Assembly (NCBI RefSeq): GCF_037893015.1
Contig: NC_133666.1
Location: 623,454,104-623,518,103 of the forward strand
Direction: 5' to 3'
From: Macrotis lagotis
Taxonomy: Eukaryota > Chordata > Mammalia > Peramelemorphia > Peramelidae
DNA: 64,000 nucleotides
Shown: positions 8,677 to 61,328 of the stretch, piece by piece
Layout: every line of letters begins with the position of its first letter
Numbering within the stretch: the first letter of the stretch is position 1
Made by a program: the position numbers and the translations under genes
The notes under the pieces: model-generated
Told to the model about the DNA's origin: nothing
The model's database searches: none
The model's input: the letters and a program-made list of their open reading frames with translations, nothing else

Positions 8677-8789
8677 TCAGAAGATCAATGTCATGGTGGT
8701 GAAGAGGACATTGATGACCACAGTCTTCACAAATAGTAGTCTCAGACCCAGCACATTGAGGAATAGCATGTTCCCCTGCTCAGGTTCTA
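8677..8789 (-). CDS. TRMC: TCR mu constant region, transmembrane/cytoplasmic exon
   Basis: Last coding exon of the mu chain. A polypyrimidine tract ending TTCCCTGCAG precedes a phase-1 acceptor; with the G from the previous exon it starts VEPEQGN and runs 36 residues after the split codon to TGA. The core LGLRLLFVKTVVINVLF is a membrane helix with Arg and Lys five residues apart. The same pair occurs in the TCR delta tail (LGLRMLFAKTVAVNFLL), where such basic residues pair with acidic residues of CD3. Almost no cytoplasmic tail follows, as in other TCR chains, so signalling must go through CD3. It lies 1.87 kb downstream of the connecting-peptide exon, across an intron holding MIR, L2 and CR1 fossils. 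I see no break. Confidence 0.9.
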
Positions 8790-8869
8790 CTGCAGGGAAC
8801 AATGGTCAAGATCAAGGGGATTCGAGGGACCTACCCTAAGCAGTAGCAACATTTATCCTAGCCAACAAT

Positions 8870-9065
8870 TATGTAATGCTTCTAAGGTTTACAAAACAAC
8901 ATACCAAAAAATTTCATGAGACTTTCAACAAAATATAATATTAGTTCTTCAGTTATTCCTGTCATTTTATCAATGAGAAAACTAGCTCAGAATGTTTGAG
9001 TGACTTGCCCATTATCACATAGTTAATAGATATCGTGGATGAGATTCAAATTTAGATCTTCTGAC
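8870..9065 (-). mobile_element. MIR/CORE-SINE in the TRMC intron
   Basis: It reads TGCTTCTAAGGTTTACAAAA, then CCTGTCATTTTATCAATGAG and AGTGACTTGCCCATTATCAC, MIR-like phrases in antisense order. It ends where an L2-like fragment begins. Confidence 0.6.
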
Positions 9066-9870
9066 TCCTTTTAGGTATGTCCTAGGCATTCCAAACTGAG
9101 CATGACCAAAATGGAATTCATTACCTTTTACCACAAGCCTCCCTTTTCTCTATACTTCCCTATTTATTATAAGGAACCACCATCTTTCTACTGACCAATA
9201 TTCACAATCTTGGCATCATCCTTATTTCTTTCGTCTCCCTGATGGCATCTGTTAGGTCTTTTCAATTTTGTGTTTTTTTCCCTGTTCTATCCTTTCATAC
9301 AGCCACCCCCACACCAGTCCAGGATTCCATCATTTCTTACATAAACTGTGGCAACAGTCTCCCATTGACCATGTCATTTCGCAGCTCAAGAATCTTCAGT
9401 CGCTCCCTATTGACTTGAGGATAAATTGCAGTCGTTCACAATCTTAGTCTAATCTATTTTTTCCATGTTTGATGAACATTATTTCACCTTCATAATTCCA
9501 TGTTCCAACCCATCTGACCTATTTGCTATTCCCAAAATTTGCATTAAATCTCCCAGATTCTTTTCCCCATCTCCAGTTTGAAAGACATTCCATCTTTCCC
9601 TCCATTCTTAGAATTTCTATTTTCCTTCAAGGCCCAGCTCTTGTACCAGTTCAGGCAGGAACTCTTGCCTCATTAGCTTATTTATTGGTGTTCTTTCCCT
9701 CCTCAATTATCCTATATTTACTTATCTATTTGTATGGTTTTTTTCCTGCCATTCAGTGGAATATAAGTTCCTTGAGAGCAAGGACTGTCTTTCAGTTTTT
9801 CCACTGAATCTTAATGTCTTGTACAAAGTAAGTGATCAATAAATATTTGTTAGATCATATGAACTTGGTA
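9066..9870 (+). mobile_element. L2-like LINE 3' end in the TRMC intron
   Basis: Starts near TATGTCCTAGGCATTCC and ends with GTGGAATATAAGTTCCTTGA, GAGCAAGGACTGTCTTTC and AGTGATCAATAAATATTTGT, the characteristic L2 3' terminus. It lies in sense on plus, so antisense to the receptor gene. Confidence 0.75.
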
Positions 9871-10379
9871 CAAAATTTGAGGTGGAAGAATGAAAAATAA
9901 TTTGGATGACTGATGGCAAGTGAATGTAACAGTGATCGAAATAGTAATAGAATAATAGGAGAAATAAGTTAAAAGAAACTTTGAAGTAGATGTCAGCTAC
10001 AGCTGTGGAAATCAAGGGTAGAAAGAGGAGAGTAAAGGAGTAATCAGTATGAGGAATAATTATTAAGAATGAATGAATTATGGAGAAGTATGGAGGACTT
10101 AGTTCAATTTATGGAATATCGTATTTCCTGAGGCCTGGGTAACTTTATACACTTTAAATCTTGAATTATGACACACTCAGACCATAGAATATCACACACT
10201 GTATATCTGAAGAGATTGTCAAGTTATTTTTAATTCTTCCACCTCATTCAAATTTCATACCAAATTCTTTGTCAAAATAGGACACACAGTAGAATCACAG
10301 ATTCAAAGGATCATATATTCAGAGAACTTCACTTAGAAAGGACTTGAGTAGCTAACTGCTCCAAATTGGCATAGAAGAA
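9871..10379. other. unassigned intronic sequence of TRMC
   Basis: AT-rich, no ORF, no recognised repeat. Confidence 0.4.
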
Positions 10380-10600
10380 ATTGTCTCTAAAACATGCCCT
10401 TGCATTATCTCAACCATACTTTGCCAAAACAGCTTCAATGAAATGGTCCCATGGCCTCCTCAGACAGTCCATTGCACATTTGAACAGTCCTAAAAGTCAG
10501 AAACTTATTCCCTACATGATCAAAGCTAAATATTCCTCTTGGTAACCTCTAGGTTTTGTCAGTGTCTCCTTCTGGTCACTGTTTTATTTTTCTTTCCTAT
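10380..10600 (+). mobile_element. CR1/L3-like fragment in the TRMC intron
   Basis: It contains CAGACAGTCCATTGCACATT, CTAAAAGTCAGAAACTTATT and TTCTGGTCACTGTTTTATTT, in the order I recall for an ancient mammalian CR1-type repeat. A similar fragment occurs near 44.0-44.2 kb. Confidence 0.4.
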
Positions 10601-10658
10601 GAAGCTCTCAGTTTCAATTTTGTCAACTTTGCCTTTGCACTATGAATCTTTAACTTAC

Positions 10659-10727
10659 CTATAAGATCCTGTTCAGGGCAAAACTGTTTCTGCTTAGAGA
10701 CAATCCCAGAGTCTGTTCCAGTATAAT
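10659..10727 (-). CDS. TRMC: TCR mu constant region, connecting-peptide exon
   Basis: Short exon between the constant Ig domain and the membrane exon. Acceptor TTTCTGACTTCAG precedes it and donor GTAAGTTAAAG follows it. With the split codon shared with the C exon it reads DYTGTDSGIVSKQKQFCPEQ then DLI. The single cysteine (FCPE) sits where TCR chains carry the residue for the interchain disulfide, so this is the likely link to the partner chain. The exon is 69 bases, phase 1 at both ends, so it joins in frame to both neighbours. Its hydrophilic content and position match the hinge-like exon of delta chains. No break is visible. Confidence 0.88.
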   Translation of the reverse strand: MILEQTLGLSLSRNSFALNRIL

Positions 10728-11093
10728 CTGAAGTCAGAAACAAATTCTCAGACATAGCTCTGATCCTCAGTAAGCCCAGGATTGGCCTCCCTGATGCTCT
10801 TGATATCAAGAAGCACCTTCCCAGCCTAGGACCATGCCCTAATCCTAGCTGTCCTACTTCAATCTTGAACCACTTCCCCACAGGATTCCTATCTCCAGCA
10901 TTATGACCTCTTCTTAGGTCACTCCTTTCAAATACAGGTGGATATTCCAATTCCTGAATCCTTTTCCCCAACTTAAATCTTTACTCAACATCCAGGTATG
11001 CTTCACCCGAGACATAGCCTTGTACCTGTCTTTCAGTATATCTCTTCTCTATGTTTCTCCCAACAACCTCCATCACTCCGGGGCTAATCATAC

Positions 11094-11357
11094 CTGACTG
11101 GTGGGATACAAGTATCTTCTTCCCATGGTGATTCACTGAGCAGGTTACTGGATCATTCTCAGCAACCTTGCCAATCTGGACAGCACTGTAGGTACCATTG
11201 GGTATGAGAGCCAGCGAAACATTCTGGACTGAGATCAAAGTCCCAGAAGAGGCCAGGGACACATAGAGGTCCTTGGGGTAGAAATTCCTGATGAGGCAGG
11301 CCACAGTATTCTTACTTCTCACCAAAAACACACTGGGAGCTAGAGGAGCTTGAAATC
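11094..11357 (-). CDS. TRMC: TCR mu constant Ig domain exon (delta-like)
   Basis: C1-type Ig domain of 88 codons. Acceptor TTTGATTGCAG precedes it; the exon ends SHQS plus G before donor GTATGATTAG. It opens FQAPLAPSVFLV, carries the first cysteine in NTVACLIRNFYPKDLYVSL and the second in DPVTCSVNHHGKK, 52 residues apart. It strongly resembles the TCR delta constant domain (VACLVKEFYPKD..., SVTCSVQHDNK...). Two N-glycosylation sequons are visible (NVS, NGT). The domain lies 520 bp after the prejoined V exon and 366 bp before the connecting-peptide exon. A delta-like C directly behind a germline-joined V exon is the diagnostic layout of TCR mu and argues against TRD itself. The open frame extends past the donor on the left, but the splice site defines the end. 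Confidence 0.93.
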
Positions 11358-11877
11358 CTGCAATCAAATGATGGCTTCCTGTCCTCTATCTGGACCTAAC
11401 CCCGTATATAAGAAAGGCACATATAGGAACAGGATATAACTGTCAAAAACAAGCTTTACCCCAAATTTCCTGTATTCTTCTTAACATCAATTTGACTAAG
11501 TTTATGTGAGGAACACATCCATATGACCAAGTAACCATAAAAAACAAACCTTAGCCCCATTTCCTACCCTAAGCCCGAGCGTTGCCATTGGAATTGACAT
11601 GTCTTAGAATTTCATTGCTGAGGGTTTCAAGCCTCTGGGTCTTATTTTGATGTGATCCCCTCCCCCACATAGCCTTTTAATGACCTATCATAATCCATCC
11701 CTTATAATTATAGCTCAAAGTGGGAATGTTAACTGTACATGGTCGCAGAGTACACTATGACAGAGAAAGGGAATTGGGAGATGGGAAACCTCACTTCAAA
11801 ATTGGGCCCAATAGTGACTGACTATGTGACTTGAAGCCTTAGAATTTCCCTAGGATTAGAATAGTAAAGGCACTCAC

Positions 11878-12243
11878 CAGGCTCCATTGTTACAACTGTC
11901 CCAGGACCAAAGACCAACTGATCTGTGTCATCTCCATTGCCCACTCTCCTTACACAGTGATATTGGCCAGAATCTCTAAGGCCCAGACCCTCAATCTGTA
12001 AGGAAATTCTACTAACAGTTTCTTCCCTGGAGATGGTGATTCGGTCTTCAGTGGGATCTGCAGAAATGCTGTTGAGACTAGTCAACGACAGTGGGGCGTG
12101 ACCAGGAGTCCAACGATACCAACCAAGTTTACTTGTCTTGAACTCGAAACCAGATGTTTGACATCTGAGTTTCAGGGTCTTTCCAGTTTGGTGGGGGCCT
12201 CCCCCTGACTCCATCAACACTGTCTTTTCCACTGCCTTTTTCA
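11878..12243 (-). CDS. TRMVJ: germline-joined TCR mu V exon (Vmu-j)
   Basis: A whole V domain already fused to a J-like end in genomic DNA. Acceptor TGCTTCATTTAG precedes it; donor GTGAGTGCC follows ATGGAGCCTG. The 122-codon exon begins KKAVEKTVLMESGGG (IgHV-like), with Cys at about residue 28 (LKLRC), Trp at 42 (LGWYRWTPG), Cys at 97 (RDSGQYHCVRR), a fixed CDR3-like loop VGNGDDTDQL, then the J motif FGPGT and VVTMEP. There is no RSS inside it and no leader in front, so it is not rearranged. It is spliced in as the membrane-proximal V domain of a three-domain chain. Phase 1 at both ends fits the J upstream and the C downstream. The symbol is descriptive. The fixed loop probably does not bind diverse antigen (known for the family, not seen here). 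Confidence 0.92.
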
Positions 12244-12797
12244 CTAAATGAAGCAGACAGAAGTAGAGTAAGTAGGGGCAGTCCATCCATGCCTCCTCCT
12301 GGGTCATAGAGCTTTGATTCCCCTAAACTCCCTCACACCCCAACCCTAACTCATCTTCCCACCTTCATACCAAACATATGGAAGAATATGGGAGACAAAG
12401 TAGCAGGGGAGACCAAGATTATTTGTCAGATCCAGGGGATCTTAGGAATCAAGTTTGGTCTGGTTTCATAGGAATTGTCCCTGAGTCCAGAGGCAATCCA
12501 GATTAGAAAAGGTTCTAAGTGACAGAAGATTCCCAAGACTAGGGAGATAAGGGACCATGGATGTAAGAAGATTGACAGGATCAAAGATTTCTGGAATGGG
12601 AAAGAGAAAGTTAACTGAAAATACTATTGGCCACAGAAACTCACAACCACTACTCAGACCATAGGAAGAGTGGAACCAACAACCCAACCCAAAACTCCCC
12701 CATATCCCTGTAGCCCTCTTGGGATCCAATAAAGTAAGATCTTTCTGCCAAGCTTTCCCCATCTTTGCACACATTCCCCCAAAACATGAAAACTTAC

Positions 12798-12850
12798 ATG
12801 GCAACACGGTCAATTCTGTTCCAAGACCAAAATTTTCCCACTGAGCTACT
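12798..12850 (-). CDS. TRMJ: TCR mu J segment
   Basis: On the minus strand the segment reads VAQWENFGLGTELTVLP, with the J signature FGxGTxLTV, and ends CCAT before donor GTAAGTTTT. The leftover T joins the TG that opens the Vmu-j exon, giving a leucine codon, so the rearranged VDJ exon would splice in frame onto Vmu-j 554 bp downstream. A recombination signal with a 12-bp spacer lies directly on its 5' side. The other frames of this stretch look open but lack any J motif. Only one J is visible here. Confidence 0.9.
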
Positions 12851-12878
12851 CACAGTAACACAGGAAGGAACCTTAACC
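12851..12878 (-). promoter_or_regulatory. 12-RSS of the TCR mu J segment
   Basis: On the minus strand: nonamer GGTTAAGGT (6 of 9 to GGTTTTTGT), a 12-base spacer, heptamer TACTGTG (6 of 7 to CACTGTG), directly abutting the J coding end. A 12-RSS on J matches the 23-RSS on the 3' side of the D segments by the 12/23 rule. Confidence 0.8.
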
Positions 12879-12879
12879 C

Positions 12880-14235
12880 CTGATCTACAGAGAGTGGTCC
12901 TTAGGAAGGGTGGAGGAACATGAGGGTGACAGGAAGTGAGATGAGAGTCCCTGAGGTCAAGTCCATGAGAACTAATCAAGGTCGTGAAGTCCAGGAACAG
13001 TCTTCAAATAAGTGTGAAGATTTATTAATACTTAAGTCTGTAAAACTTAAAAATATACAGCTAGATTAAGTTCTCAGCAAGGCTACAATTAGGCTAAACA
13101 TTAGGGAAGGGCTTCATTTTTGCAGAGTCTCAAATCAGTCCTCCACATTACCTGTATGAGATTGATTGATCTATCCTTGAGCAAAGCCAGGTAATATAGG
13201 AGACTGCTTGAAAGGGAAAGTAACCTAGGATTCATTGGATGATCTGGCAGGCACTGTAAGCCATCTGGTGTGGTACCAATCCCAGAGAAGCTGGCAAGAG
13301 CCCTGGGGTGAATTCTCTTTTCTTTGTGAAGGGTAGAGCCACCCTGGAATGGGTTTGCCCCAGCAGAGGGGCCAACATCTTGAAATGCATAGTAGTTCTG
13401 GCAACATCTGGTGAAAACTAATAATGTGCATAAAAACTGAGCAGTATTGCACCAAAAAATGATAAGCTGATATTGTCCTAGACTTAAGGTTTTTGTCAAA
13501 TGAATCAGATTGTTGAGTATTTCATAATTCAAAAGAGGGAAGATTTGAGAGGAAATACCCTACTTAAGATTAGTTTAATGAGAGATAGGTTGCATTTTGA
13601 CAGTTGCATTCTGGTCTGACAGGGAAGACCACATTGATGATGAACCTATCAAGTGATAGGGTAGGACATATCTGAGTTGCCACAAATACATAGCAATGAT
13701 TTGTGCTTGCCTAGCATTGATGGTGTGCTAACATGCCTTGTTGATGTGGAAGAAACAAAACCATTTAAGATCAAGAGACTCTTGCAACAGCCAGATCATC
13801 ATCAATAGCCATGATTCTAATACAGCAGGCCCAGAAATAGTACTCTAGTGAGAAGTATGCCTTGAACAACATATTCCTCACTATAATATACATAATTGTG
13901 CAACTCATACCTCCAACCAATTGGGTAAATGGCATTGTCTTCTTTGATTCCTAAGAACAAATAATACTAACAGTCAAGAAGGCTTGGAGAATCTCAAGAA
14001 CCAGAGTTGTCCAGAGATGCTAAGTTAAATTTCTCTTCTGAACATGGCCATGGTAGGCAACTGTGAAAACACTAATTTATCAACGACTCAGGGGATGTTG
14101 GTTGTTGTATATTTGCACTGATACATCTCCCTGTGGAGTTTGGGAACATTTGAGTCAACTAATCCTCTCAAGGTGATTGGAAATATTTCAGACAACCACT
14201 AATAGTACCCTGATACCCCTGCAAAGATTCTGCAA
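12880..14235. other. unassigned sequence upstream of J
   Basis: A minus-strand open stretch (13101-13532) has no domain I recognise and no V-type cysteines or tryptophan in the right spacing. The rest has no ORF or clear repeat. No further RSS pair was found in it by eye. Confidence 0.4.
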
Positions 14236-14239
14236 ACCC

Positions 14240-15033
14240 TCATGGAGCATTTAGGAAAAGTTTTCCAGCTCCAAATCGATGAATTCCAGGTCATCAGAAG
14301 GTCACATGATGACATATTTCTCATCTGGTTGTTTTTTCTTCCTAAAATTTTTGTTGCCTTTTTTGTGATTTATGGATTTTTTTTAACATTCATATTTAAA
14401 ATCTTGAATTCCAAATTTTCTCTCTTGCTCCTATCCCTCTCCCATTCATTATGAAGACAAACAATATGATATAAGTTATGCATGCAAAATCAAGCAAAAC
14501 ATATTTCCATATGTTATGTTTTAAAAAGCTTAAAAAGTATGCTTCAATCAGCAGAATTCATCAGTTCTCTCTCTAGAGGTGGATAATATTTTTCATTATG
14601 GGTCCAGATTATTATCTTGATCAAAATAAGAAGGTATTTTAGAGCTGATCATCATTACAATATGGTGGTTACTGTTATAATGCTCTCCTGACTTTGCTCA
14701 CTCTTCTTGGTATCAGTCCATGTAAGTTTTCTCAGGTTTTTCCAAAATCAATCGTTCATCATTTCTTACAACATCCAGTAGTATTCTATTTCAATCATAT
14801 GCCACAATTTGTTCACCTGTGCCCAATTTTCAATTCTTTGCCAACACAAAAAAGTAATAAAATTATTTTTGTTTAGATAGGTATTTTTCATTTTAACTTG
14901 GCTCTTTGGGATACAGATATAATAGTAATATGTTTAAGACAGAGGGAATACTCAATTTTATAGCTCTTTGGGCATTGCTTCCAAACTGTTCTCTAGAATG
15001 ATTGGACAGATCACAATTCTATCAATAATGTGT
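14240..15033 (-). mobile_element. old L1, antisense, left part (3' UTR and ORF2 C-terminus)
   Basis: The right end reads CTCTTTGGGCATTGCTTCC and GATTGGACAGATCACAATTC, the complement of the ORF2 C-terminal region seen in sense at 21.9 kb. The element is interrupted here by a younger L1 and resumes at about 23656 (TGTATTGGGGTTCCCTATTT). Confidence 0.7.
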
Positions 15034-15404
15034 TGGCGAAAATATGACCACAAAGGATAATGATCATTGTTGGAAGGATTGTGGGAAATCTGGGACACTA
15101 TTACATTGTTGGTGGAGCTGTGAACTCATCCAACATTTCTGGAGAGTGATTTGGAACTACACCCAAAGGGCAACAAAAATATGCATACCCTTTGATCCAG
15201 CAATACTACTACTGGGTCTATACCCTGAAGAGATGATGAGAAAGGGTAAAAAAAACATTACTTGTACAAAAATATTCATAGCAGCCCTGTTTGTGGTGGC
15301 AAAGAATTGGAAATCAAGTAAATGTCCTTCAATTGGAGAATGGCTTAGCATACTGTGGCACAGTATGTCATGGAACACTATTGTTCTATTAGAAACCAGA
15401 AGGG
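15034..15404 (+). mobile_element. 5'-truncated L1, left part (ORF2 C-terminus)
   Basis: It encodes the L1 ORF2 C-terminal zinc-like motif: CWKDCGKSGTLLHCWWSCEL, then ICIPFDPA and LYPEE. It is split at 15404 by a second L1 and continues at 22686-23127 with its 3' UTR and A-tail. Flanks TAATGTGTTGG (left) and TAATGTATTGG (right) look like a target-site duplication with one mismatch. Confidence 0.8.
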
Positions 15405-16165
15405 GGACTTCCAGCCAAGATGGCAGAGTTCTAAAGTCTCCTGATCTTTCCCCATCTATCATATGAAACAAACCTCTTAAAAGAAATCCGACCCACAAAA
15501 CCCAGAAAGAAAAGCCATGAGAAAGAACATCAGGATCTGTCTCCCGCAGCAGCTTTGGCTGAATTCAGGCGGGTGAGTCTGGGCTCAGAGGGAGGATCAG
15601 CCTCGGATCAGCCAGATTAACAGCTGAATTGGAACTGGGAGTCTGAGGGCTGGAGAGCCGGACCTGATGGATCAGTGGTGGTGCTGGACGAAAGGGGCTT
15701 GTGTCCGCGGGGAAGCAGAGTCGCTGCTGTTGGTGGTGTCCCCCTGGAGCTTGGGGACCAGGCTGGGGGAAGAGTTCTAGTGCAGGAGAGCTGCAGACAC
15801 CATCCCTATGCTCCTCGGGTCTGAGAAACTCTGAGTGCACGCCTCCATTGCACAGAGGCCTCTTCTCAAACAAATGCGAACTACTTCTGCCTCAGGCCCA
15901 GGTGTGTGAGCAGAAGAAACAGCCCACCTAAGGAATGATCTCAGGCCAGGGTAAAGCCCACCATTGATTGAAGGCAAAAGAATTCAATAGCTTCAATTCC
16001 TCCCTTCAGGCAAAGGGAGAAGGCCTCTCAACCAAAGTCACAAACACTCCAGAGAGGGCAACCAGCAGCTCCTACTGGCCAGCCAGAAAAACTGCAATCA
16101 GTAAAGCTTTTAGCGATGCCAAGCCCAGGTGAAACACCCCCCCCCCAACTCAAGGTCTTAGCATA

Positions 16166-16905: not shown

Positions 16906-17333
16906 CGTGAGAGAACAGTGGGGGACCTCTGCCAGAGCCAGCACGTGGAGCCCAGCCCTCAGGGCACACAACCAGCAGCTTGGTCTTTCAGCAGCCCAGA
17001 CCCAGAAACAGAAGCAGGTGGAGCCAGTAAGCAGGAGCCCCCAGGGCATGAGCCCATTGAGCTGAGGGAGGGGAGTGAAGAGAGAGAGACTGCCAAGCTC
17101 TGTCCTCTGCCCCTGGAACAGGACTCTGGGGCTCTGACCACATTCAGATCCTGATCCCAGTCTAGGCCCCCCCATAGAACAACAGGGCCCCCCACCTCGG
17201 CACCATGGCAGAGTGGGGCACTTATATTCATTCACAGATCAGGAGGGAGGACAGAGCCTCACACACTGAGATCCTTGTGGGAGTGTCCCAAAAGCTCAGG
17301 AAGCACCCGCAAAAACAGGCTTAGGCTGGGAAA

Positions 17334-19834: not shown

Positions 19835-22240
19835 AATCTATCTATCTCAGAAAAAGAAATTCAACAAGCCATTATTGAACTCCATAAAAAAAAACTCTCC
19901 AGGACCTGATGGATTTACAAGTGAATTCTACCAAACATTCAAGGAACAATTGGTTCCAATTCTGTATAAACTGTTTGGAAAAATAGGGAAAGATGGAACT
20001 CTGCCTAACTCTTTCTATGAAACCAATATGGTACTGTTACCTAAACCAGGAAGAGTTAAAACAGAGAAAGAAAATTATAGACCTATTTCCCTGATGAATA
20101 TAGATGCAAAAATCCTAAATAAAATCTTAGCAAAATGACTACAACAAGTCATCACTAGGATAATACATTATGATCAAGTAGGATTTATTTCAGGAATGCA
20201 GGGTTGGTTCAATATTAGGAAAACTGTTAGTATACTCAATTATATCAACAACAAACCTATCACAAATCATATGATCATATCAATAGATGCTGTAAAAGCT
20301 TTTGACAAAACAGAGCATCCATTCCTACTAAAAACACTAGAGAGTGTAGGAATAAATGGACTGTTCCTTAAAATAATTAGCAGTATCTATCTGAAACCAT
20401 CAACAAGCATTATATTCAATGGGGAAAGGCTAGAGGCATTCCCAATAAGATCAGGGGTCAAACAAGGGTGCCCATTATCACCACTACTATTCAATATTGT
20501 ATTAGAAATGTTACCATCAACAATTAGAGAAGAAAAAGAAATTGAAGGAATTAGAATTGGGAAGAAGACACAAAACTCTCACTCTTTGCAGATGACATGA
20601 TGGTCTACCTAGAGAATCCCAAGAAATCATCTAAAAAACTACTGAAAACAATTAGCAATTTTAGCAAAGTTGCGTGTTATAAAATAAACCCCCACAAATC
20701 CTCAACTTTTCTATATATGTCTAGCAAGAAACAGCAGGAAGAGCTAGAAAGAGAAATCCCATTCAAAGTAACCTCAGACAGTATAAAATATTTGGGAGTC
20801 TATTTGCCAAGACAGACTCAGAATCTTTTTGAAAACAATTATAAAACACTTCTCACACAAATTAAATCAGATTTAAATAACTGGGCAAATATCAACTGCT
20901 CATGGATAGGTAGAGCTAATATAATAAAAATGACAATTCTACCAAAACTAAACTATCTGTTTAGTGTCCTACCAATGAAAATTCCAAGATATTACTTTAA
21001 AGAGTCAGAAAAAATTATAAGTAAATTCATATGGAGAAATAAAAAGTCAAGAATTGCCAGGAGCTTAATGAAAAAAAAGTGCAAGAGAAGGTGGCTTAAC
21101 CCTACCCGATCTAAAATTATATTATAAAGCATCAGTCATCAAAACTGTTTGGTATTGGCTAAGAAATAGAGTGGTGGACCAGTAGAATAGACTAGGTGTA
21201 AAAGCAAGAGAGTATTATAGTAATCTGCTGTTTGACAAACCCAAAGAGTCTAGCCATTGGGATTAAAAACTTCCTCTTTGATAAAAATTGCTGGATTAAT
21301 TGGAAGTTAGTATGGAAGAAACTTAGATTAGACCAACACCTCACACCCTTTTCCAAGATAAGATCCAAATGGTTACAGGACATAGACATAAAAAAACAAT
21401 ACTATAAGAAAATTAGAAGATCAAGGACTAGTTTACCTGTCAGATCTATGGAAAGGGGAACAGTTTATGACTAAGGAAGAGTTGGAGAACATCACCAAAA
21501 GTCAATTGATTTCGATTACATTAAATTAAAAAGCTTTTGCACACATAAAACCAATGTAAGCAAGAACAAAAGAAATGTAGTAAACTGGGAAACAGTCTTT
21601 ACAACTAATGATTCTGACAAAGGACTCATTTCTAAAATATGCAGAGAACTGAGTCATATTTTTAAAACAAAAAGCCATTCCCCAATTGACAAATGGTCAA
21701 AGGATATGCAAAGGTAATTCACAGATGAGGAGATCAAAGTAATCCATAGCCATATGAAAAAATGCCCTAAATCATTAATTATTAGAGAAATGCAAATTAA
21801 AGCTTCTCTGAGGTACTACCTCACACCTCTCAGATTGGCCAGTACGAGCAGGAAGGATAATGATCATTGTTGGAAGGGATGTGGGAAATCTGGGACACTA
21901 TTACACTGTTGGTGGATCTGTGAACTCATCCAACACTTCTGGAGAGCTATTTGGAACTGTGCCCAAAGGGCAACAAAAATGTGCATACCCTTTGACCCAG
22001 CAATACCACTACTGGGTCTATACCCTGAAGAGATGAGGAAAAAGGGTAAAAACATTACTTGTACAAAAATATTTATAGCAGCCCTGTTTGTGGTAGCAAA
22101 GAATTGGAAATCCAGTAAATGTCCTTCAATTGGGGAATGGCTTAGCAAACTGTGGTATATGTATGTCATGGAACACTATTGTTCTATTAGAAACCAGGAG
22201 GGACGGGATTTCAGGGAAACCTGGAGGGATTTGCATTAAC
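19835..22240 (+). pseudogene. L1 ORF2, RT domain to C-terminus
   Basis: It begins at [16 protein letters not shown] motifs follow in order: [63 protein letters not shown] and [12 protein letters not shown]. The C-terminal motif CWKGCGKSGTLLHCWWICEL lies near 21875. It is broken by frameshifts and stops near 20137, 20590, 21124 and 21520. The endonuclease domain is absent. The 19691-19834 stretch before it looks like an older L1 3' end. Confidence 0.85.
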
Positions 22241-31961: not shown

Positions 31962-33165
31962 AGGATAGATGTTTTTTTAATTGTATTTACTTAGAAGCAT
32001 TCAGAATGTCAACAAAACAGCTGCAACTTTTTTTTTTGTTTTTGCAATTACAGAGTGGTATTCAGTTAACAGAACAACAATTATTTCATATACTGCATCA
32101 AAGACAACTGAAGATAAAAATGAACTACATCCCCATATATAACTAATTTATGCTGTGCACCAAGAAGAACCTGCTTTAAATGTCCATGCCAATTTACAGC
32201 CCCCATACTGTACCAGGCAAGGTTAGTGGCTATTGAAAATACCACTAAAGGACAGGGCTATCTAAAGACACATTCGGTGGTGTGTTAACTATACAAAAAA
32301 AGACACTGTACAGTTTAAAAACAAATCTTATACAGCCTTACATTTCATTTTTTTTCTTTAAAAGGAGTAAGTTGTGTACAGGGGGGGGTTAAATGCTTTA
32401 TAGACAAGAAAAAAACTGCTCTAGAACCAACTTATTCATTGTCATCATCTTCTTCATCTTCCTCCTCTTCCTTCTTTTTCTTGCTCTTCTCAGCCTTGAC
32501 AACTCCTCCCTTTTTACCCACATCAGGTTTTCCTTTAGCTCGGTATGCAGCAATATCCTTTTCGTATTTTTTCTTCAGCTTAGCTTCCTTCTTTTCATAA
32601 GGTTGCTTGTCATCTGCAGCAGTATTATTCCACATTTCTCCCAATTTTTTCACCACATCTCCAATGGAAAGACCAGGATGCTCCCCTTTGATTTTTGGAC
32701 GATAGTCAGAACAGAATAAGAAAAATGCCGAAGGAGGCCTCTTGGGTGTATTGGGATCCTTGAACTTTTTTTTTGTTTCTCCTTTAGGTGGTATGTAGGT
32801 TTTCATTTCTCTCATAACGAACCTTATCAGCTTTTGCCATGTCCTCAAATTTTCCTTTCTCTTTAGCAGACATTGTCTTCCACCTTTCTGAGTATTTTTT
32901 AGAAAATTCTGAGAAGTTCACAAAAGCATCTGGGTGCTTCTTCTTGTGCTCCTCTCGGCAGGTTTGCACAAAAAAGGCATATGAAGACATTTTCCCTCTT
33001 GGCTTCTTAGGATCACCTTTGCCCATTTTGTATTACTTTCCCTCAGCGCTGCACAAAGTAGTCCAGTGCCCGTCTGGCTCTCGCTTGCCCTGGCGCTGTC
33101 TCTATGGAGCTCAATGTACTGCAATGGCTGTGAGAGCGCGAGCCAGACGCAGGATAGATGTTTTT
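31962..33165 (-). pseudogene. HMGB1P: HMGB1 processed pseudogene (retrocopy with UTRs)
   Basis: Intronless copy of HMGB1 mRNA. The coding part is 32432-33026: [20 protein letters not shown] starts box [21 protein letters not shown]-type sequence begins box B, and an acidic tail follows. The parent gene encodes a chromatin-bending protein of about 215 residues with a 30-residue acidic tail; here the tail is only about 12 residues ([12 protein letters not shown]). A 2-base loss near 32805 (GAGAGAAATG for GAGAGAGAAATG) shifts the frame between the boxes. The 3' UTR runs left to about 31977, and 5' UTR sequence lies right of the ATG. Exact duplication AGGATAGATGTTTTT at 31962-31976 and 33151-33165 proves L1-type retroposition. 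Host element: antisense L1. Confidence 0.95.
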
Positions 33166-35977: not shown

Positions 35978-36053
35978 AGTTTTTGTAGTATGAACTTCAG
36001 GGGATGCATCACTGTGTTTCCCGATCACTTTGATTCAGGCCTCAACCAAAACC
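35978..36053 (-). other. TRMD: TCR mu D segment 1 with 12- and 23-RSS
   Basis: In minus-strand order: nonamer GGTTTTGGT (8 of 9), a 12-base spacer, heptamer CAAAGTG, D coding ATCGGGAAA (36017-36025), heptamer CACAGTG, a 23-base spacer, nonamer ACAAAAACT (8 of 9). A 5' 12-RSS with a 3' 23-RSS is the arrangement of D segments in TCR beta and delta. It allows joining to the 12-RSS of J and to a further D. The 5' heptamer is the weakest element (5 of 7). Same orientation as J and C, 23 kb upstream of J. No promoter was identified. Confidence 0.82.
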
Positions 36054-44525: not shown

Positions 44526-44607
44526 TGTTTTTGTCCCAAGTGTCTCTGAAGTCATATCACTGTGCTTTCCCTGAATTGACACAGTGACACAGGGCCCACC
44601 CTAAACT
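44526..44607 (-). other. TRMD: TCR mu D segment 2 with 12- and 23-RSS
   Basis: In minus-strand order: nonamer AGTTTAGGG (5 of 9), a 12-base spacer, perfect heptamer CACTGTG, D coding TCAATTCAGGGAAAG (44565-44579), perfect heptamer CACAGTG, a 23-base spacer, nonamer ACAAAAACA (8 of 9). Both heptamers are consensus and both spacers have exact length. It shares the GGGAAA core with D1 and lies 8.5 kb further upstream in the same orientation. The 5' nonamer is weak, which may lower its use as a partner for V. Confidence 0.85.
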
Positions 44608-44609
44608 CT

Positions 44610-47425: not shown

Positions 47426-47639
47426 CAAAGGAAGGTTCCTGGTTTGAGGAGGAGAAGCAGAAGTGCAATTAGAAATTCTTATGATATAAAAATAAGATCA
47501 TCAATAAAACTTAGGTTGAGAGATAAATGCATACAAAATGATGAATGAGAATGCTTCCTTGTTTCTTCTAGCAAATTGCTTCCACAATCATCCCCTCTTG
47601 TTCTAATTTTAAATCTCTATCAACTAGCTCCTCTCTGAG

Positions 47640-50940: not shown

Positions 50941-50941
50941 T

Positions 50942-52621: not shown

Positions 52622-52785
52622 ACTGGGGCACAGTGGAAAGGGCCCTGGAGTCAGGAGTACCTGAATTCAAATTAGGCCTCAGACATTTAATAATTACCTA
52701 GCTGTGTGGCCTTGGGCAAGCCACTTAACCCCATTTGCCTTGCAAAACCTAAAAACAAAACAAAACAGAAAAAAAAAACCATATG
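52622..52785 (+). mobile_element. SINE inside the gag-like region
   Basis: Family body with a slightly rearranged head (ACTGGGGCACAGTGGAAAGG) and an A/CAAAA-rich tail. Confidence 0.8.
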
Positions 52786-54249
52786 AAACTTCTAATAAGG
52801 AATGGGAATGTTTCCATCACTGGTTAGTGAGATGCTCCAAAGAGAGCACATAGCTGAAATTGAGATTTCTTCTCCTCAATCACCCCTCCCCCTGAGAAGT
52901 TAACTCTTTCTCCAAACCTTTCACTTGCATCTGCTTATCCAGTCTCCATTTCAGTCCCTCCCCCTCCCAAGCTATTGATAACTTCAAAACTCACTCTTCT
53001 TCCTGCTCTAAAAGCTCCAGTTCATCTTCCTTTTTCAGCTTCTGTTCCTTTTCCTTATTTACTGCTTTCTTTGCCTCCTAAAGATTCTGGTTTGAGGGAT
53101 CCATCCCTTCTGCAAATCTGGCTCACAATCTAAATCCATTGTTATATGCTCCCTCCCATGCTACCCTCCCCTGTCCTAAGGAAACCTCTGCATCTCTTTC
53201 TCCTCCTGCTGCAGAAAGTCTCATCACTCACTCTTCCTTCTTCTTTTCCTTCTCTTCCTCTCTTTCATCTTTTTTCTTTTCTTGTTCTAATTTTCCTCAC
53301 TCATTCTTTTTCTTTGCCTTATTCTAATCCCCCTTTTCTCATTCTTTTATTTCCTTTTATCCTTAGCCCAGTAGCATTTCTTCTTCTCTTGGCTCCCCAA
53401 TTCCTTCTCTTTGTTTCATCTCCTCATCCCATAAATGGTAATCCCTCCATTACCTCCTCTCCTTGTCCCTCAATTTCTTCTCCTTCCTCTATAGCTTCAT
53501 TTCCTTCTCTCTTTACTTCTTGTGTTCCTAACTCATCTCTTCCTTATTTTTCTATTCAGTCTTACCCTAATATCTACTATCATATTTTCTCTCATGCCTA
53601 GCCTTCCATCACCTCTTCTTTCCCTCTTTTTAATCCAATTGTTCCATCTCTCTATCCTTACCTTCAATTCCCTCTTATTACAGAAGATCCTGTTTCTAAT
53701 GAGATTACCCCCATCTCCAGAATAGACTTCAAATTCAGACCCTGTTGGGATATTTTCTTTTAAAGTAGTAAACAGACTCTGCCCTCAGACCATTCCAACT
53801 ACAGATGGAGAAGGACAGGCTACACCTGATATTAAACTTTATACTGTCCCATGGTATAAATTCAAGCCATGGAACAGAGGTGAATTTCAGATTAAAAAAA
53901 AAAGATTTCCCTGACAAGATCCAATAGATTTTAGTGATCAATTTAAAGTTTCTCTGCAATTCTATCACCCTGGTATCACAGACATTTCCCAGTCAACCCT
54001 AGCTTTAGTTAGAAAGTGCAAAGTCAAGAACTGGTTCAAACAAACAAAAATACAAGTCACTTTTGAGAAGTTTCAGGAGACCAACTGGGCAGTTTATGCA
54101 GATCACTATATAGATGCAAGAGCCCAAGGGGATACTTTATTTTAGGGGTTTTTTTAAATCATTTAACAAAGGTTTTGGATGCAAATTCTGATTTAAAGCA
54201 TGATTAGGAAGGAGGAGGACAGATTCCATTTCTCTCTTCCTTTACTAAC

Positions 54250-54678
54250 TGTTGAGTCCGGAGGAGGGAACTCAGGCCAACATCAATATGATGCATAAAC
54301 TGGTTCGTTTATTGATCACAGGATACTTACTTTTATACTCTACATTTACGTAACCAATTACATAAGCGTTTTAGCAAGCATTTTTTTCACATGCATACCT
54401 TGTGTATGTCTTAGGTGATTGTTTTGAGAACCAAACAGTGTTTTGATAAACAGAGTGAAGATTGTTTTGAGAACCAAACAGTGATTTGATAAACAAAGTG
54501 CAGAAGGTAATTATCTCAGAATGCGCTATCTATCTGAGCCTGGGAATACACCTCGTTAGCTCAGACATGCAGCTACTCCCTTATCTATGCTCTGAAGTAC
54601 ATCTTTCTCCTTAAAGCACATAACTATTTCTGTGTTAACCCTTCATAGCTCTTAGCCTGGAATACATATGACACAACA
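54250..54678 (-). mobile_element. solo LTR, minus strand, 6-bp duplication
   Basis: Starts TGTTGAGTCCGG, ends GACACAACA, and carries TTTATT near 54311 (AATAAA on minus). Flanks ACTAAC and GCTAAC form a 6-base duplication with one mismatch, a length usual for class II retroviruses. It lies within the gag-like region of another element. Fossil. Confidence 0.65.
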
Positions 54679-55325
54679 GCTAACAATCTTCAACCATCTC
54701 AGTCATGAAATATTAAATTATCCAGCCTTTCAGAATGGCAAACTAAACATCCTCAGTTCATGGTTGATCTTGTTGCTCAGTTAGCTCAGACCTTAGAAGT
54801 TCAGTTCCTCCAGGAGAAAAGGGAATTGAGAGCAAAGAGAAATAAGGTGCATACTATTCAGTTCAACATTTAATAGCTCCTATCCAAAATCTAACTGTTA
54901 TCAGAAGCCAGTCTGAGAAACCAGTAACAAGGATTTACTATTATTGCAAAGAACCAGGCTATTGGGAGAAACTGTGCAAAATTATGGAGAACAAGAAAAA
55001 CAGAAATTAAAAAGTCCTTCCCCACAGCCTCTATGAGCTTTGAAAATTTCTTCTTTCTGTTACTCTTCAACAGGACTATTTTCAGCTATTGTCCTGCTGG
55101 CTCTCCTGTGATACCCAACTCTCACACCCTGTTATTTCCCATTCCTTCTTCTGCAACTTAGGCACTGTGGTTGGTCTATGCCGAGTCTATTCTTCCATTC
55201 CTGTTCATCCCAGTAGTCAATACCTTTTTGCTTTTACATAGGAAAAATAGCATTTACATGGACAGTCTTGTTTTTAAACTGATCAATTCAATTCTGAAAC
55301 TTTGTTCTAAAAAAACCTGGCTGCA

Positions 55326-55326
<1 letters not shown>

Positions 55327-55375
<49 letters not shown>
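55327..55375 (+). repeat. (CT)n microsatellite
   Basis: About twenty CT units between GCTCG and CTTTCTCTC. Confidence 0.95.
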
Positions 55376-55392
55376 ATTATCTCTCTCCTTAG

Positions 55393-55690
55393 GGCAACTA
55401 GGAAGAGAAGTGGATAGAGCACTGGCCTTTGAGTCAGGAAGAGTAGAGTTCCAGCCTCACACATATGCCACTTATGAGCTGTGTGACCTTAGGCAAGTCA
55501 TTTAATCCTGATTGCCTTTCATTCAAGGACATCTCCAGTCATCTTGATTCTTTTCTATCCACTGTACCTAGATGGCTCTGGAGGAGAATATCAGGTTGAT
55601 GACTTAGCATTGCACCCCCTCACTCATGTGCTTGTCATGGTATCACCTCCCTGATGTCCTGTTCATCTTTAGAAATGAAGGACAGACATT
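55393..55690 (+). mobile_element. Mar1-like SINE (tRNA head with RTE-derived tail)
   Basis: tRNA-type head (GGATAGAGCACTGGCCTTTG) joined to AAGGACATCTCCAGTCATCT, AGATGGCTCTGGAGGAGAAT, TCACCTCCCTGATGTCCTGT and AATGAAGGACAGAC, the RTE-derived tail of marsupial Mar1-type SINEs. Confidence 0.75.
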
Positions 55691-55699
55691 ATAATATCT

Positions 55700-56060
55700 C
55701 TCCTTATCTCATTTACATTGGAGATTTTCTCTCCTAAATTCCTCAACTCTTTCTCTAAATCTAAAAAGATAACACAGGCTAGCTGCTATTCTGAATTGAA
55801 AGCTTGTTCAAAAAATTAGACAGAGATATTTATGTTTAATTAGGTATGTTTTGAAGGTTAAACATTAAGAATTATTTTATGTTGTAAAATCTAAACTGTT
55901 CTGTTGATCTTAAAGGTTTATTGTGGATATTTAGAATTTGAATACAAATTATATGAAACTTAAAATATATTTTTGAATATGTATTTTAAATCTTTAAATA
56001 AATGTCTTGAAGCAACTAGGTGACTCTATGGATAGAGCACTGGCCCTGCAGTCAGGATAT
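55700..56060. other. unassigned sequence with a short SINE head
   Basis: AT-rich DNA; a SINE head fragment lies at about 56010-56057 (GGATAGAGCACTGGCCCTGC). Confidence 0.45.
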
Positions 56061-56128
56061 GCAAAGGACCAATAGAATTGGAAACTTTAGGAGTCCTGGG
56101 ATATGGTGTGGCTGCTTATTCTTCTAGT

Positions 56129-56699
56129 GAGAGTGTGGGGAGACCCACATTTATATTACTGGCAAAGAAAGCAGAGCAAAGAGACACATCATAAAAGAAT
56201 GGGGGGGTGAGGGAATAAGTGCGCACTGAAGGGTGACCCATGCTTTGGGGGTGTTCAGCAGGAATAGCATAGTAACAAGGAGTTGGTGAAGAGACAAGTG
56301 TCCTCTAGGTTTAAAATCCATTGCTCTTTTTGCCAAGGTAAAGAGCTTGCCCTGGAGTGCTGCGGGGAGGTTGGGGGAATCATCTTTTCCCCATCAATCC
56401 TCTATGTCTTGGGTTTCATCTACTGTTGTTTAGAGACATTCTTTGTATTCCTTTGGTCAGGCCTGCTACAGAGCTAGGTGATCTGGAAGCCGGAGGGGGG
56501 CAGGGAGCCGCAGGTCCGAACAGATGGTTGGGAATCTACGATCAAGGAGGAAGAGAAGACGGCAAGGACCAAGGCTAGGGCTTGCAATGCTGTCTGTTGC
56601 ACAGACTGGATGTGGTGGCTCCTGTGAGCGAATAAAACGGATCCATTTCTGTAGATTACATAGCCCAAGTGCTTTCTGTTTGCATTTGTAAAGGCTACA
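56129..56699 (+). mobile_element. possible LTR
   Basis: GC-rich block with GCGAATAAAACGG at 56629-56640 and an end near GGCTACA, like an LTR R-U5. No partner was found. Weak call. Fossil. Confidence 0.35.
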
Positions 56700-56799
56700 T
56701 AAGCCTGTGGAAGGGGGGGGGGGACAAGAGGAGGAGCATGCTAACATGGAGTGCTGAAATCCCCTTGAGGAGAGGGGAGGGGCAGGTAATGGTTATCAA

Positions 56800-57967
56800 T
56801 AGACCCTGCAAAGATCTCTCATCTGACAGGCATCTGTGAAGTCATTAGCTGCTGCTGAGGGGGTAGGGGAAGCATCTTGATGTTTCGGGGGAGGCTGGAT
56901 CCAGCCTTCTTCCCCAGGCAACTCAGGGTAAAGACGAGGAGGCTTTGGGGTGGGGGTTGTCTGGCGGAAAATCCGGGGAGGGCTTAGGAGGAGGGGGGCA
57001 AATGGATTTCTCATCAGTTTGAGTGCCCTCATCGCACACCTCAGTTAGGTGGCATGGGCTCTCTGCTCTGGCCTTTTCTGCATCTAAAGCTGCCTGTAAA
57101 ATATCTTGAGGCTTTTCCTCTCTCCCTGAAAGGCAGGCATGTATTGTAGTGACTATAGGATAGAAGGGCAGTGGGGAAGAAAAGTCACCACGAACCTCAG
57201 CTCTTCAGGCAAGTGTCAAAACATGCCCCCCAAACATCAGGATCCAGGATGTGGCCAGCTTCAATCTAGGGGGCCAAAAAAGAAAAAAAAACCGCCTGGA
57301 GTGTTATCTTACGTTCTTTTTCAAAGCATTTCAGGCAACAGGAACTTAGGAGTTGATTAAAAACCCGTACTTGGGTATCTTGGGAAGAAGGGGGCAGATT
57401 CCCCATTAGGATAAGGGACTACAGGGGGCTCTAAAAGCCGTGGGGCTGCTAGGGCAAGGGGACCATCAAGAGACCAACCTATATGGGGCACTTACCTTAG
57501 CCAGCAAGGATGAGTGCGATTCTGAAGCGTCCTTCAGAATTGGCAGATCCCAGATTTCAGCACCATTTGTTATGGCTTGCTTCAACTTGGGACCCACAGT
57601 GGTTCCTGGAGGGGAGCTGAGAATAAGGAGTCAAGCCACTACTGCCTTATGCCTCTAGCTCAATTTTATTACTGCTTAGCTATTACATATATACTGTTAG
57701 GTCTTCCAGGGTAGAACAGAGAAAATGAGATAATTGGGGGGAATGCACAAACGGTGTGTACAGGCAGCACCTTGCATTACAGGATAAGGGGGTACATTAG
57801 AGGGGAGGTGGTAAAACACAGCTGTGTCTAGTGCCCTTGGTCTGTGGGGCAGAATGTCCAACTCCCAAGCACTCCAGGGTGGCGTGCCAGCTCCTGAGAC
57901 TGTCCAGGTGGCAGTTTACTTGGAAATGATTTGTGTCATGGCTGTTAGAATAGCCTGTGTACCCACA
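56800..57967 (-). mobile_element. class II (betaretrovirus/IAP-like) fossil: LTR, PBS, gag part
   Basis: On the minus strand: an LTR (57967 down to 57568, TG...CA, AATAAA at about 57670), two bases, a primer-binding site (57565-57547, TGGTGCTGAAATCTGGGAT) close to the complement of tRNA-Phe, a leader, then a Pro-rich gag-like part near 56800-57030 (RLYPELPGEEGWIQPPPK). Only the front of the element is here. It lies inside the other retroviral fossil, in opposite orientation. Broken. Confidence 0.6.
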
Positions 57968-57969
57968 CC

Positions 57970-58260
57970 CCCTTAAGTTCCTCCTTGTCTTGGTGGACAC
58001 CTTTACCCTCCTGGGTGGAGGCATGGCCTTGTAAAACTGAAAGAGCTCAGGAAGTCTCCAAAGTCCTTTTGAAGGAAATAATTCCATGTTTTGGCCTGCC
58101 CTACTCTTTGCAGAGTCATAATGGCCCAGTTTTTGTCTCTCAAATAACTCAGGGAGTAGCTAGAGTCTTGAACATCACAAACTTTCTTCATTCAGCTTGG
58201 CATCCCCAAGCATCAGGAAAGGTAGAAAAGATGAATGGAACTCTCACACACCTTAGCTAA
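57970..58260 (+). mobile_element. integrase-like part of the retroviral fossil
   Basis: Phrases FLLVLVDTF, CFGLPYSLQSHNGPVF, ARVLNITNFLHSAWHPQ and SGKVEKMN follow the order of a gammaretroviral integrase catalytic core. It abuts the class II LTR at 57967. Broken fossil. Confidence 0.75.
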
Positions 58261-59460
58261 GCTATGCCAAGAGACCCAAATGAGGCTAGATAACTCTTCT
58301 TCCAATAGGATTGTTGAGAGTTTGTATTGCTCCATGGGAAAATATTGAGTGGGATAAAGTCTGAGATTTCTTCAGTAAAATATTATAGATTGAATTTGAT
58401 TAACTATGTGCCCCTCCTCCCTTGACAAAGCAAATTTCTGGGATATTGGTGAAGAGTCAATTGACCTCACCTTATCTGTTGATGTCCAGAGAATCATTCA
58501 ATTCCTAGGGCTAAAGAGATAATCTGGTTTCGATTTGAATTTTATGCTCTTTTCCCTAGGGTAGTTTTTGGGTTTAGATTGTAAAACCACATTCCTCATT
58601 AACATTAACGAGGGTGGGTCAGTGGCATGGTAGTGATGGGATCAGTTGGAGACAAACTTGTAAATCTTTTGTTCGCATTGTAAAGGGAATCTTCCTTTAT
58701 CATCTAATTCAGGCCACACCTGAAGGCCTGACCTTCAACTTGGATTGCATTGTTTTTCTGGGGCAGCCAGGGAGCACAGGCCCTGGAAGACTACCCAAAA
58801 GAGAGCCCTCCCCAAAAGGCAAAATCTCCAATGAGGGACTTGGGTCATTCCCAGGTCACCACCCCCTCCCATGGGCTCTGAGAGAGAATTTAAGGAGAAG
58901 GAGGGAGGACCTCTAGTCTCTTGGACCTTCCAGTCTCCTGCTGAACCCTGGCTGTTTGACCTGGACAATTCAATCAGCAATCCACATGGTTTTCTCTTAA
59001 AACTCTTTCTAACTTTTCTATCCCTTTCTTAATATGCTATAACTTCCTTTAGTAAATCTCTATTTTCTTTCCAAAACCTGCATTCCAGAGTCTGAGTCAT
59101 GATTCTTCATGGGCAGAACTGAACCTAAGAAACAAATCAGCACTTACAACATGAATCCAAAATAAAGAAGAAATGGACCAGAAGTTTGTATTATTTACTT
59201 TCTCCCTCTTGGATTTCTTGATTATACATGTTCTTCAATCAAAGGGAACTTTCTCCTTTTGATTTTTGTTACAAGTCCTTGACTTTGTAAATGCATCATC
59301 CATCCTTATGCCCCCCAAAAGATCTTATGTTTGTTCCCTGATCATTCTTCTAGCAACCATAGGTCTCCTTTCCATCTACATGCCCCTCATGTTTTTTTTT
59401 TCTTTAATTGTTCTATAGTTGACATAATGACATCTTTGATGGAAATGGGGGAAATTTCAA
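58261..59460 (+). mobile_element. 3' region of the retroviral fossil, unassigned
   Basis: No env or other gene is recognisable. A purine-rich tract (ATGGAAATGGGGGAAA, about 59439-59454) directly precedes the 3' LTR, as a polypurine tract would. The block near 58560-59150 could be yet another LTR. Confidence 0.4.
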
Positions 59461-59912
59461 AGTATAATAATTACTAAGAGTTTTTACAACTATTGCTGGT
59501 CATAGGTCAATTTTTCCTAGCTATTGTGAGGAATGGCTTTGACTTAGAAAGGAAGACTTATCCTGCCCTTCTTAGTCCAGTGAACAATTGTTTCCTTTAT
59601 GATTTGAAAGGAGTTATTTGCCCTGCCCTCCTAGTACTTAAACTCAAAAGAAATAGATATTACTTCCCTCAGGCAAAATAGCATTGTAGAAGGATGGTAA
59701 GGCTTTGTCCACTCTTATTATATTTTCTGTTCTCCTCCCTTTGTTGCTGTATAAGTTTTCTAATTTCCCTCGATTTGAGGTGGTCATTACTAGATGGTTC
59801 ACCTATAGGTAAATGGTAAATCCTAGAGAATTAAACATCTTGTGTTATCCATTTTTTTTACTATATTATTTTAATCCTGTTTTAAGGTCCTTATACTTTT
59901 AGGGTTCATAGG
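59461..59912 (+). mobile_element. 3' LTR of the retroviral fossil
   Basis: Matches the 51433-51893 repeat in the same orientation. Confidence 0.7.
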
Positions 59913-59914
59913 GA

Positions 59915-61244
59915 ATAATTTTTTTAATGTCCTTATTTATTTCATATTTTTTAAAGAATGTTGGGACAATTAACTCTTTGTCTTATACAGTTTTAGTTTA
60001 TCATTTCTTCAAATATAGCTCCAAAAAAACCCAGGATTTGAAAATGTCCCTTGGGGTTCAAATGGGGTTATTTGACTAACTAAACCTTTAAATTCAAATC
60101 ATTCTGGCTTTTACTGAATGGTCTACAATAGATCCCAGCCCAAATCTCCCCACTTTGCTCTGAGTGAATGTAAATAGCAATTGCTTTCTCTTGGAGATGA
60201 TTCTTTTGTGATGACAAACTAGACCATCTTTTGTCTCAATTCTTACATAGACTTTAAATATTTAATTGTTGTTGCTTTAGGCAAACTGAGACCTGTGCGA
60301 AGACCTTAGTTTAAAAATACTAAGGTCATCACCAGTCATCTTGACTTTTTTCATGCTACGTGAAGATATGATGGAGGAACTGGCAATGGTTAGTATGGAA
60401 CACAAAAGTCAAAGCTTACAACTGATAGCTATCTTCTAATATTTGTAGTATTGTCACATAGAAAGGGAAAATGCCCTGGTTCTACTTTATGAAAGGAAAG
60501 ACTTCCAAACAACTGAAGTTATCCAAGAGAAAAATGGGTCATATCGAGAAATAGAGGACTCTCTTCAAGTAAAGACTGTGTGACCATTTGTTTGGTATGT
60601 TACAGGCAGAATTTCCTTCTCATAAAGAGCATGGAGCAGATGGCTTCCAAGCATTCTTGATGCTGATTCCTTAAGAAGAACAAGTAGGTTCTTATAATTG
60701 TTGTCCTGAGTTCAGTATTCCTCTGTGAGGAATCATTACTTGACCCAGGAATGCAGGTATAAAAAGAAAATTAGAGATTTATTAAAAAGGAAGTTACAGC
60801 ACAAATGAAAGTAATAGAGAAATTAAGAAGAAATTAGAAAAGCCACATGGATTGCTAATTAATTTTGACAAGTCAGCTGCCAGGTTAAGCAGAAATCTGC
60901 AAGATAGTGTCAGAGAGAGAGAGAGAGAGGGAAAGAGGGACTATACTTGCGAATTGCCCAAATACTACATTGGAGAGTTTCCCTTTTTGAGAGGGGTAGG
61001 GAATCTACAGATTCTGATCTAGGTATTGTCGATTATTGTTTCAGTGACTTACCAATGAGAAGATGGCCAAGAATAGACTGGCAGTCAAGAAAGAGTGTTT
61101 AAACAGAGTGAAATATTTACAAAATTTTCTTTCCAATGAATTTCATTTTCCCTGTGCCCATGGTTCTCTGCATCATAATGAGAGGACAAGCTCCTTAGTA
61201 AGAATATGCCTAAGTGTACTACAGGGATTACTGAGGTGTTGTTT
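59915..61244. other. unassigned noncoding sequence before D3
   Basis: No gene seen. A (GA)n run lies near 60915-60930. A diverged Mar1-type tail may lie near 60320-60420. Confidence 0.4.
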
Positions 61245-61328
61245 TTTTTTTATAATGAATCCCTATGAGAACAGATCACAGTGTGACTCCCACTGACTGG
61301 CACAGTGATTCATGGCTTACTCCAAACC
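61245..61328 (-). other. TRMD: TCR mu D segment 3 with 12- and 23-RSS
   Basis: In minus-strand order: nonamer GGTTTGGAG (5 of 9), a 12-base spacer, perfect heptamer CACTGTG, D coding CCAGTCAGTGGGAGTCA (61284-61300), heptamer CACTGTG (6 of 7 to CACAGTG), a 23-base spacer, nonamer ATAAAAAAA (6 of 9). The flank resembles D2 in both heptamers and in the 12-spacer, so the two look like duplicates. Weakest of the three because of its nonamers, and it may be a decaying segment. Same orientation as J and C. Confidence 0.62.

Follow-up and report, generated by a model that had tools for sequence, protein, structure and literature searches.

The window analysed here, a stretch of 64,000 nucleotides from the greater bilby Macrotis lagotis (C9:623454104-623518103, C9 being contig NC_133666.1), carries on its minus strand the parts of a T-cell receptor (TCR) mu, or TRM, gene cluster. 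From 5' to 3' these are three diversity (D) segments, a joining (J) segment, a variable exon already joined in the germline (Vj), a constant (C) immunoglobulin (Ig) domain exon, a connecting peptide (CP) exon and a transmembrane (TM) exon (Table 1). J, Vj, C, CP and TM form a single open frame with no internal stop, and TGA follows directly. The last four are bounded by GT/AG splice sites, and all four junctions (J/Vj, Vj/C, C/CP and CP/TM) are phase 1. At the J/Vj junction the opossum (Monodelphis domestica) protein P0013, a structure construct joining V-D-J-Vj-C, reads ..TVLPLEKT, and the splice sites of the window also yield ..TVLPLEKT.

An earlier note on this DNA had named these same parts, in this order and on this strand, between 8677 (the TM stop) and 61328 (the far end of the 5' recombination signal sequence, RSS, of the first D). 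The three D segments with RSSs, the J with its 12-RSS, the open fused V-J exon, the C domain called delta-like, the CP with its Cys and the TM exon with Arg/Lys were all recovered, the last two spliced in frame. Its assignment to TRM and its view of the window as one cluster of a larger locus also held. The window is almost certainly a complete class-III-like TRM cluster, the fifth of seven counted 5' to 3'.

Sequence comparison bears out the assignment. Among PDB chains, Vj matches opossum TCR mu best (7k0x, 7k0z and 7l15, 186-220 bits per chain); a multi-nanobody fusion, which matches in three stretches, follows at 127 bits. C has these three at the top as well, with 121-123 bits, ahead of a TCR delta chain at 64 bits; the earlier note had said that a better match to TRD or TRA would speak against TRM, and among PDB chains the better match is to TCR mu. 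Identity to opossum P0013 is 88/119 for Vj, 59/86 for C and 70/103 for V. The best of the 28 proteins found is P0001 from the northern brown bandicoot Isoodon macrourus, labelled 'T-cell receptor delta chain', which we take to be a published bandicoot cDNA. Identity is 83% along the whole Vj-C-CP-TM (99/116 in Vj), and the alignment crosses the Vj/C, C/CP and CP/TM joins of the window and ends at the same point. In a protein tree of 31 rows (five from bilby and 26 from the set of 28, without P0027 and P0028), the window, cluster c7 and Isoodon make up one clade with 100/100 support, unresolved inside, within marsupial TRM. The TCR mu gene type, of which this cluster is a new member, is known from marsupials and monotremes only.

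Under the 12/23 rule V (23) can join D (12/23), D can join D, and D can join J (12). RSSs were scanned and tested in pairs, with at least 11 of 16 consensus matches per RSS as the threshold and 40 Markov-1 random sequences as the control. At this threshold three D-type 12-RSS/23-RSS pairs were found on the minus strand, none on the plus strand and none in the random sequences; these pairs define the three D segments of the window. Lowering the threshold to 10 gave six pairs on the minus strand, none on the plus strand and a random mean of 0.175 (maximum 2). Each D has its 12-RSS on the 5' side and its 23-RSS on the 3' side. A fourth D-like segment and a V lie past the right edge. V segments with a 23-RSS had been expected there, and the search gave one V, not several, for the window cluster, complete with leader and 23-RSS. 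Cluster c7, about 150 kb away, has a counterpart of each of the four D-like segments, flanked by both RSSs, in four of the seven pieces scanned; that scan was less strict at its first step (CA in place of CAC) and had no random control of its own, and it gave no further RSS pair in the seven pieces.

Table 1. Parts of the bilby TRM locus. Plain numbers are window coordinates; those marked C9 are contig coordinates.
Feature	Position	Strand	Remarks
Possible poly(A) signal AATAAA (tentative)	7957..7962	-	about 0.7 kb past the stop
TRMC exon 3, transmembrane and short tail	8677..8789	-	ends in LGLRLLFVKTVVINVLFTTMTLIF, with Arg and Lys, stop included; 91% over 35 aa in duplicate cluster c7; aligned with bandicoot P0001
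TRMC exon 2, connecting peptide with Cys (KQFCPEQDLI)	10659..10727	-	87% in c7; 72% over 18 aa in c3; present in bandicoot P0001
TRMC exon 1, C1-set Ig domain	11094..11357	-	Pfam C1-set 3.4e-9; TCR mu best in PDB
TRMVj, germline-joined V(D)J exon	11878..12231	-	Pfam V-set 8.9e-10; TCR mu 7k0x/7k0z/7l15 best in PDB
Former single-V leader (MDGLPLLTLLLSASFS..)	12232..12290	-	pyrimidine-rich, reaches the Vj splice acceptor; ATG at 12290 out of frame with Vj
TRMJ, (V)AQWENFGLGTELTVLP	12798..12850	-	donor GTAAGT; opossum 7k0z has ..EQWENFGPGTELTVLP
12-RSS of TRMJ	12851..12878	-	heptamer 6/7, nonamer 6/9
TRMD, third in window, nearest J, ATCGGGAAA	36017..36025	-	12-RSS 36026-36053, 23-RSS 35978-36016; c7 has a homologue, both RSSs included
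TRMD, second in window, TCAATTCAGGGAAAG	44565..44579	-	12-RSS 44580-44607, 23-RSS 44526-44564; c7 has a homologue, both RSSs included
TRMD, first in window, CCAGTCAGTGGGAGTCA	61284..61300	-	12-RSS 61301-61328, 23-RSS 61245-61283; c7 has a homologue, both RSSs included
Fourth D-like segment, 6.9 kb past right edge	70914-70929		12-RSS 14/16; 23-RSS 12/16, heptamer CACAACA
V of window cluster, 19.3 kb past right edge	exon 83329-83638		leader 83918-83987; 23-RSS 83290-83328; open frame
D-like segments of c7	C9:623356722-736, 623348358-374, 623335767-782, 623329650-658
Cluster c1	C9:623.80 Mb
Cluster c2	C9:623.76 Mb
Cluster c3	C9:623.70 Mb
Cluster c4	C9:623.559 Mb		broken class-II-like Vj, C9:623558784-623559091
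Cluster c5	C9:623.466 Mb		the window
Cluster c6	C9:623.407 Mb		broken class-II-like Vj, C9:623407371-623407690
Cluster c7	C9:623.316 Mb

Tandem clusters and the single-V leader

The searched genome (3.6556 Gb in 607 contigs) contains five intact and two broken Vj copies, and an opossum V-mu query had nine of its 41 matches in the TRM region (five V segments and four Vj copies). The Vj copies mark seven tandem clusters, c1 to c7, running 5' to 3' from high to low coordinates, and the word 'translocon' used in the earlier note is therefore wrong for this locus. Of c4 and c6 only the broken Vj copies are known, each upstream of an intact cluster; the C exons of the four intact clusters other than the window's were read out from the Vj loci.

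Vj DNA of the window and c7 is 91.5% identical (92.1% for V), that of c3 is 76.3% identical to either, and the other seven pairs reach at most 71.1%. The two broken copies match c2 most closely, at 72% across some 344 bases, and are 87% identical to one another. In the tree, c1, c2 and the group of c3, window and c7 fall into three clades, each with other marsupials, with support of 100/98, only 94/85, and 100/100, respectively. From this tree and the cluster order, rather than from opossum DNA, the classes may be read as I-II-III-II*-III-II*-III (asterisks for broken Vj), as in opossum clusters 1-7, which are reported to alternate between classes II and III (PMC2275272, PMC7615758). A unit of about 150 kb, made up of a broken class II and a complete class III cluster, is duplicated in tandem. 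A regular-expression search matched the TM exon in the window and c7 only; tblastn agrees and finds the CP exon also in c3. Within the stretches examined by tblastn, with no wider search, c1 and c2 lacked CP and TM and c3 lacked TM.

In seven of the 28 proteins (bandicoot, wombat twice, possum, glider, koala and devil) a 16-residue leader stands directly before Vj; these comparison proteins are apparently mostly gene predictions. The bandicoot leader of P0001 is in frame, whereas that of the bilby is not. The distance from leader ATG to the Vj frame point is 58 bases in the window, 46 in c7 and 49 in c3, each out of frame by one. The window leader further contains an insert of 12 bases and two possible splice acceptors, each of them in frame. 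Once this insert is discounted the offsets of window and c7 are equal, which makes an error of assembly unlikely. The window retains, 4 bases on, an ATG that is in frame (MDCPYLLYFCLLHLVKKA) and would give an altered leader in which two Lys follow the hydrophobic stretch. In four dasyurid proteins (P0010, P0011, P0024 and P0027) the leader stretch is in frame inside longer frames, with Ile for Met; a lost start is therefore not unique to the bilby. These reading frames suggest that the single-V form has probably been lost in the bilby.

Mechanism and alternative explanations

If the cluster works as its segments predict, RAG would join the single V (23-RSS) to J (12-RSS) via at least one D segment, with up to four available, giving an outer, clonally variable V domain. 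J would then be spliced in the transcript to the germline-joined Vj, followed by C, CP and TM. The product would be a two-V chain that pairs with TCR gamma, with the invariant Vj as a structural partner; the CP cysteine would provide a disulfide and the TM Arg/Lys would serve assembly with CD3. Vj is described as invariant and as the reported partner of a near-invariant V-gamma (PMC7615758). Several observations weigh against a complete, working cluster. The heptamers of J, V and the outermost D are imperfect, J has FGLG in place of FGPG, two of the parts (V and fourth D-like segment) are located outside the window, and the scan of the right flank also gave three unpaired RSS-like sites (68557, 71807 and 76082).

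That the window is instead part of a conventional TRD/TRA locus, as a delta-like C might suggest, or a fragment of IGH, is exceedingly improbable. TCR delta chains are the next-best PDB matches for C after TCR mu, and V-mu is IGHV-like: 28 of the 41 opossum V-mu query matches lie at C1:438.2-439.7 Mb with 34-48% identity and are probably IGHV. However, C scores 123 bits with TCR mu against 64 bits with TCR delta, the window falls among marsupial TRM proteins in the tree, and the IGHV-like matches are on a different record (C1) from TRM (C9). Among TCRs, marsupial TRM alone is reported to carry a germline-joined Vj exon between J and C (PMC7615758).

Another alternative is a relic, intact in appearance and preserved solely through its young age, which would have ceased to be rearranged or expressed. 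The FGLG motif and 6/7 heptamer of J would fit a relic, as would the broken Vj of two neighbouring clusters and the missing CP and TM of c1 and c2 and TM of c3 in the stretches examined. We consider it very unlikely, since every exon of the window cluster has an open frame, its V is open and has a leader, V (92.1%) and Vj (91.5%) are open both here and in their c7 counterparts, and the RSSs have been kept although the D letters differ between window and c7. It is also unlikely that the main product is a single-V chain (leader-Vj-C) made without rearrangement. Bandicoot P0001 and six other marsupial proteins of the 28 have that form, but in window, c7 and c3 the leader ATG does not lie in the Vj frame, and the in-frame ATG of the window brings only the altered leader with its two Lys. 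A rearranging two-V TRM cluster is the reading that we keep.

Chromosomal setting and comparison with other species

C9 is 704.7 Mb long, with TRM at C9:623.3-623.84 Mb and Ig-lambda-like constant genes at C9:698.2 Mb. The latter are called Ig-lambda from one gene, L001, nearly all of whose best PDB matches are antibody light chains (the top chain is labelled as an IgA1 heavy chain). As an X marker the AR N-terminal family (PF02166) had no match in the bilby genome; it is uninformative because 14 controls were equally silent, and POU3F4, presumably X-linked in marsupials, was therefore used. A human POU3F4 query matches C9 at 52.83 Mb, with 86% for residues 1-160 and 92% for residues 152-344; the next-best match, on C5, covers residues 167-346 only. 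Two antigen-receptor loci thus share a record with POU3F4. With this one X marker placed, the TRM locus very probably lies on the compound X of the bilby. The ancestral X is reported to make up about 84 Mb of the compound X (PMC11965985), so within the 704.7 Mb of C9 both TRM and the 698.2-Mb genes would belong to the added, autosome-derived arm, probably to the part pairing with Y2. It is possible, if rather doubtful, that males carry X-linked and Y2-linked TRM haplotypes that are drifting apart, with a partly sex-linked repertoire, in combination with loss of the rearrangement-free single-V form through leader frameshifts.

MOG-like genes are found near TRM. The query was the human MOG Ig exon; its best match is at C5:10.02 Mb (87%), and 14 of its 81 matches are near TRM on C9, with 45-59% identity. 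Thirteen of these exons, two with stops, are at C9:622.31-622.89 Mb, 3' of TRM. One lies inside the TRM locus at 623.617 Mb (C9:623617171). MOG is likewise reported 3' of TRM in opossum and Tasmanian devil (PMC7615758, PMC2275272), the opossum account naming one MOG paralogue (PMC2275272) against fourteen MOG-like exons in the bilby.

The window contains a few other elements. An HMGB-like retrocopy at 32432-33032 (-) has Pfam HMG_box in two overlapping frames and is therefore broken. A reverse-transcriptase fragment, L1-type by look, is at 20139-20600 (+), and an open frame with no Pfam match at 62701-63270 (+) resembles one at 21475-21717. Between two D segments, at about 56-59 kb, there may be an endogenous-retrovirus remnant, with one weak integrase match below cut-off. 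An Rfam scan of the window gave no family at gathering score.

The opossum locus, as published, has the same tandem V-D-J-Vj-C clusters, three clades, class II/III alternation and a MOG paralogue 3' (PMC2275272, PMC7615758). It differs in having six complete and two partial clusters, against five with intact and two with broken Vj in the bilby; in its three D per class III cluster (PMC2275272) against four D-like segments for the window; and in lying on chromosome 3q, against a record that carries POU3F4. The devil is described with the same segments, three classes and MOG 3' of the locus, but with nine clusters (three partial) in the order I II I II III III III III III on chromosome 1 (PMC7615758). 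Bandicoots appear from one report to have only two clusters (PMC2275272) against seven in the bilby. Platypus TRM also has two V domains and a TRM C; its second V is not germline-joined and the MOG synteny is absent, according to the same account as for the devil (PMC7615758). The shark NAR-TCR, a three-domain TCR with an extra outer V, is given as of independent origin (PMC2275272, PMC7615758).

The greater bilby genome paper reports that TCR mu was identified (PMC11239497), and no bilby TRM locus map was found in the open-access literature, that paper included and its supplements aside. The V-D-J-Vj-C gene type of the window cluster was already known; its likely placement on a fused X is the unexpected part. 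Three things appear to be new: TRM on the POU3F4-carrying record, probably the compound X, as are the Ig-lambda constant genes; four D-like segments where the matching opossum class has three; and a single-V leader out of frame with Vj in all three bilby members of the window's class.

The TRM locus makes a third mammalian T-cell lineage, one lost in placental mammals, and a peramelemorph map can now be set beside those from other marsupials, opossum and devil among them. This map suggests that the opossum alternation of classes II and III holds in an Australian marsupial too, rebuilt there by tandem duplication of about 150 kb. If C9 is the compound X, the bilby would be a natural test of what happens when an antigen-receptor locus joins a sex chromosome, and if the leader lesions are real, it would also test whether the single-V form matters.

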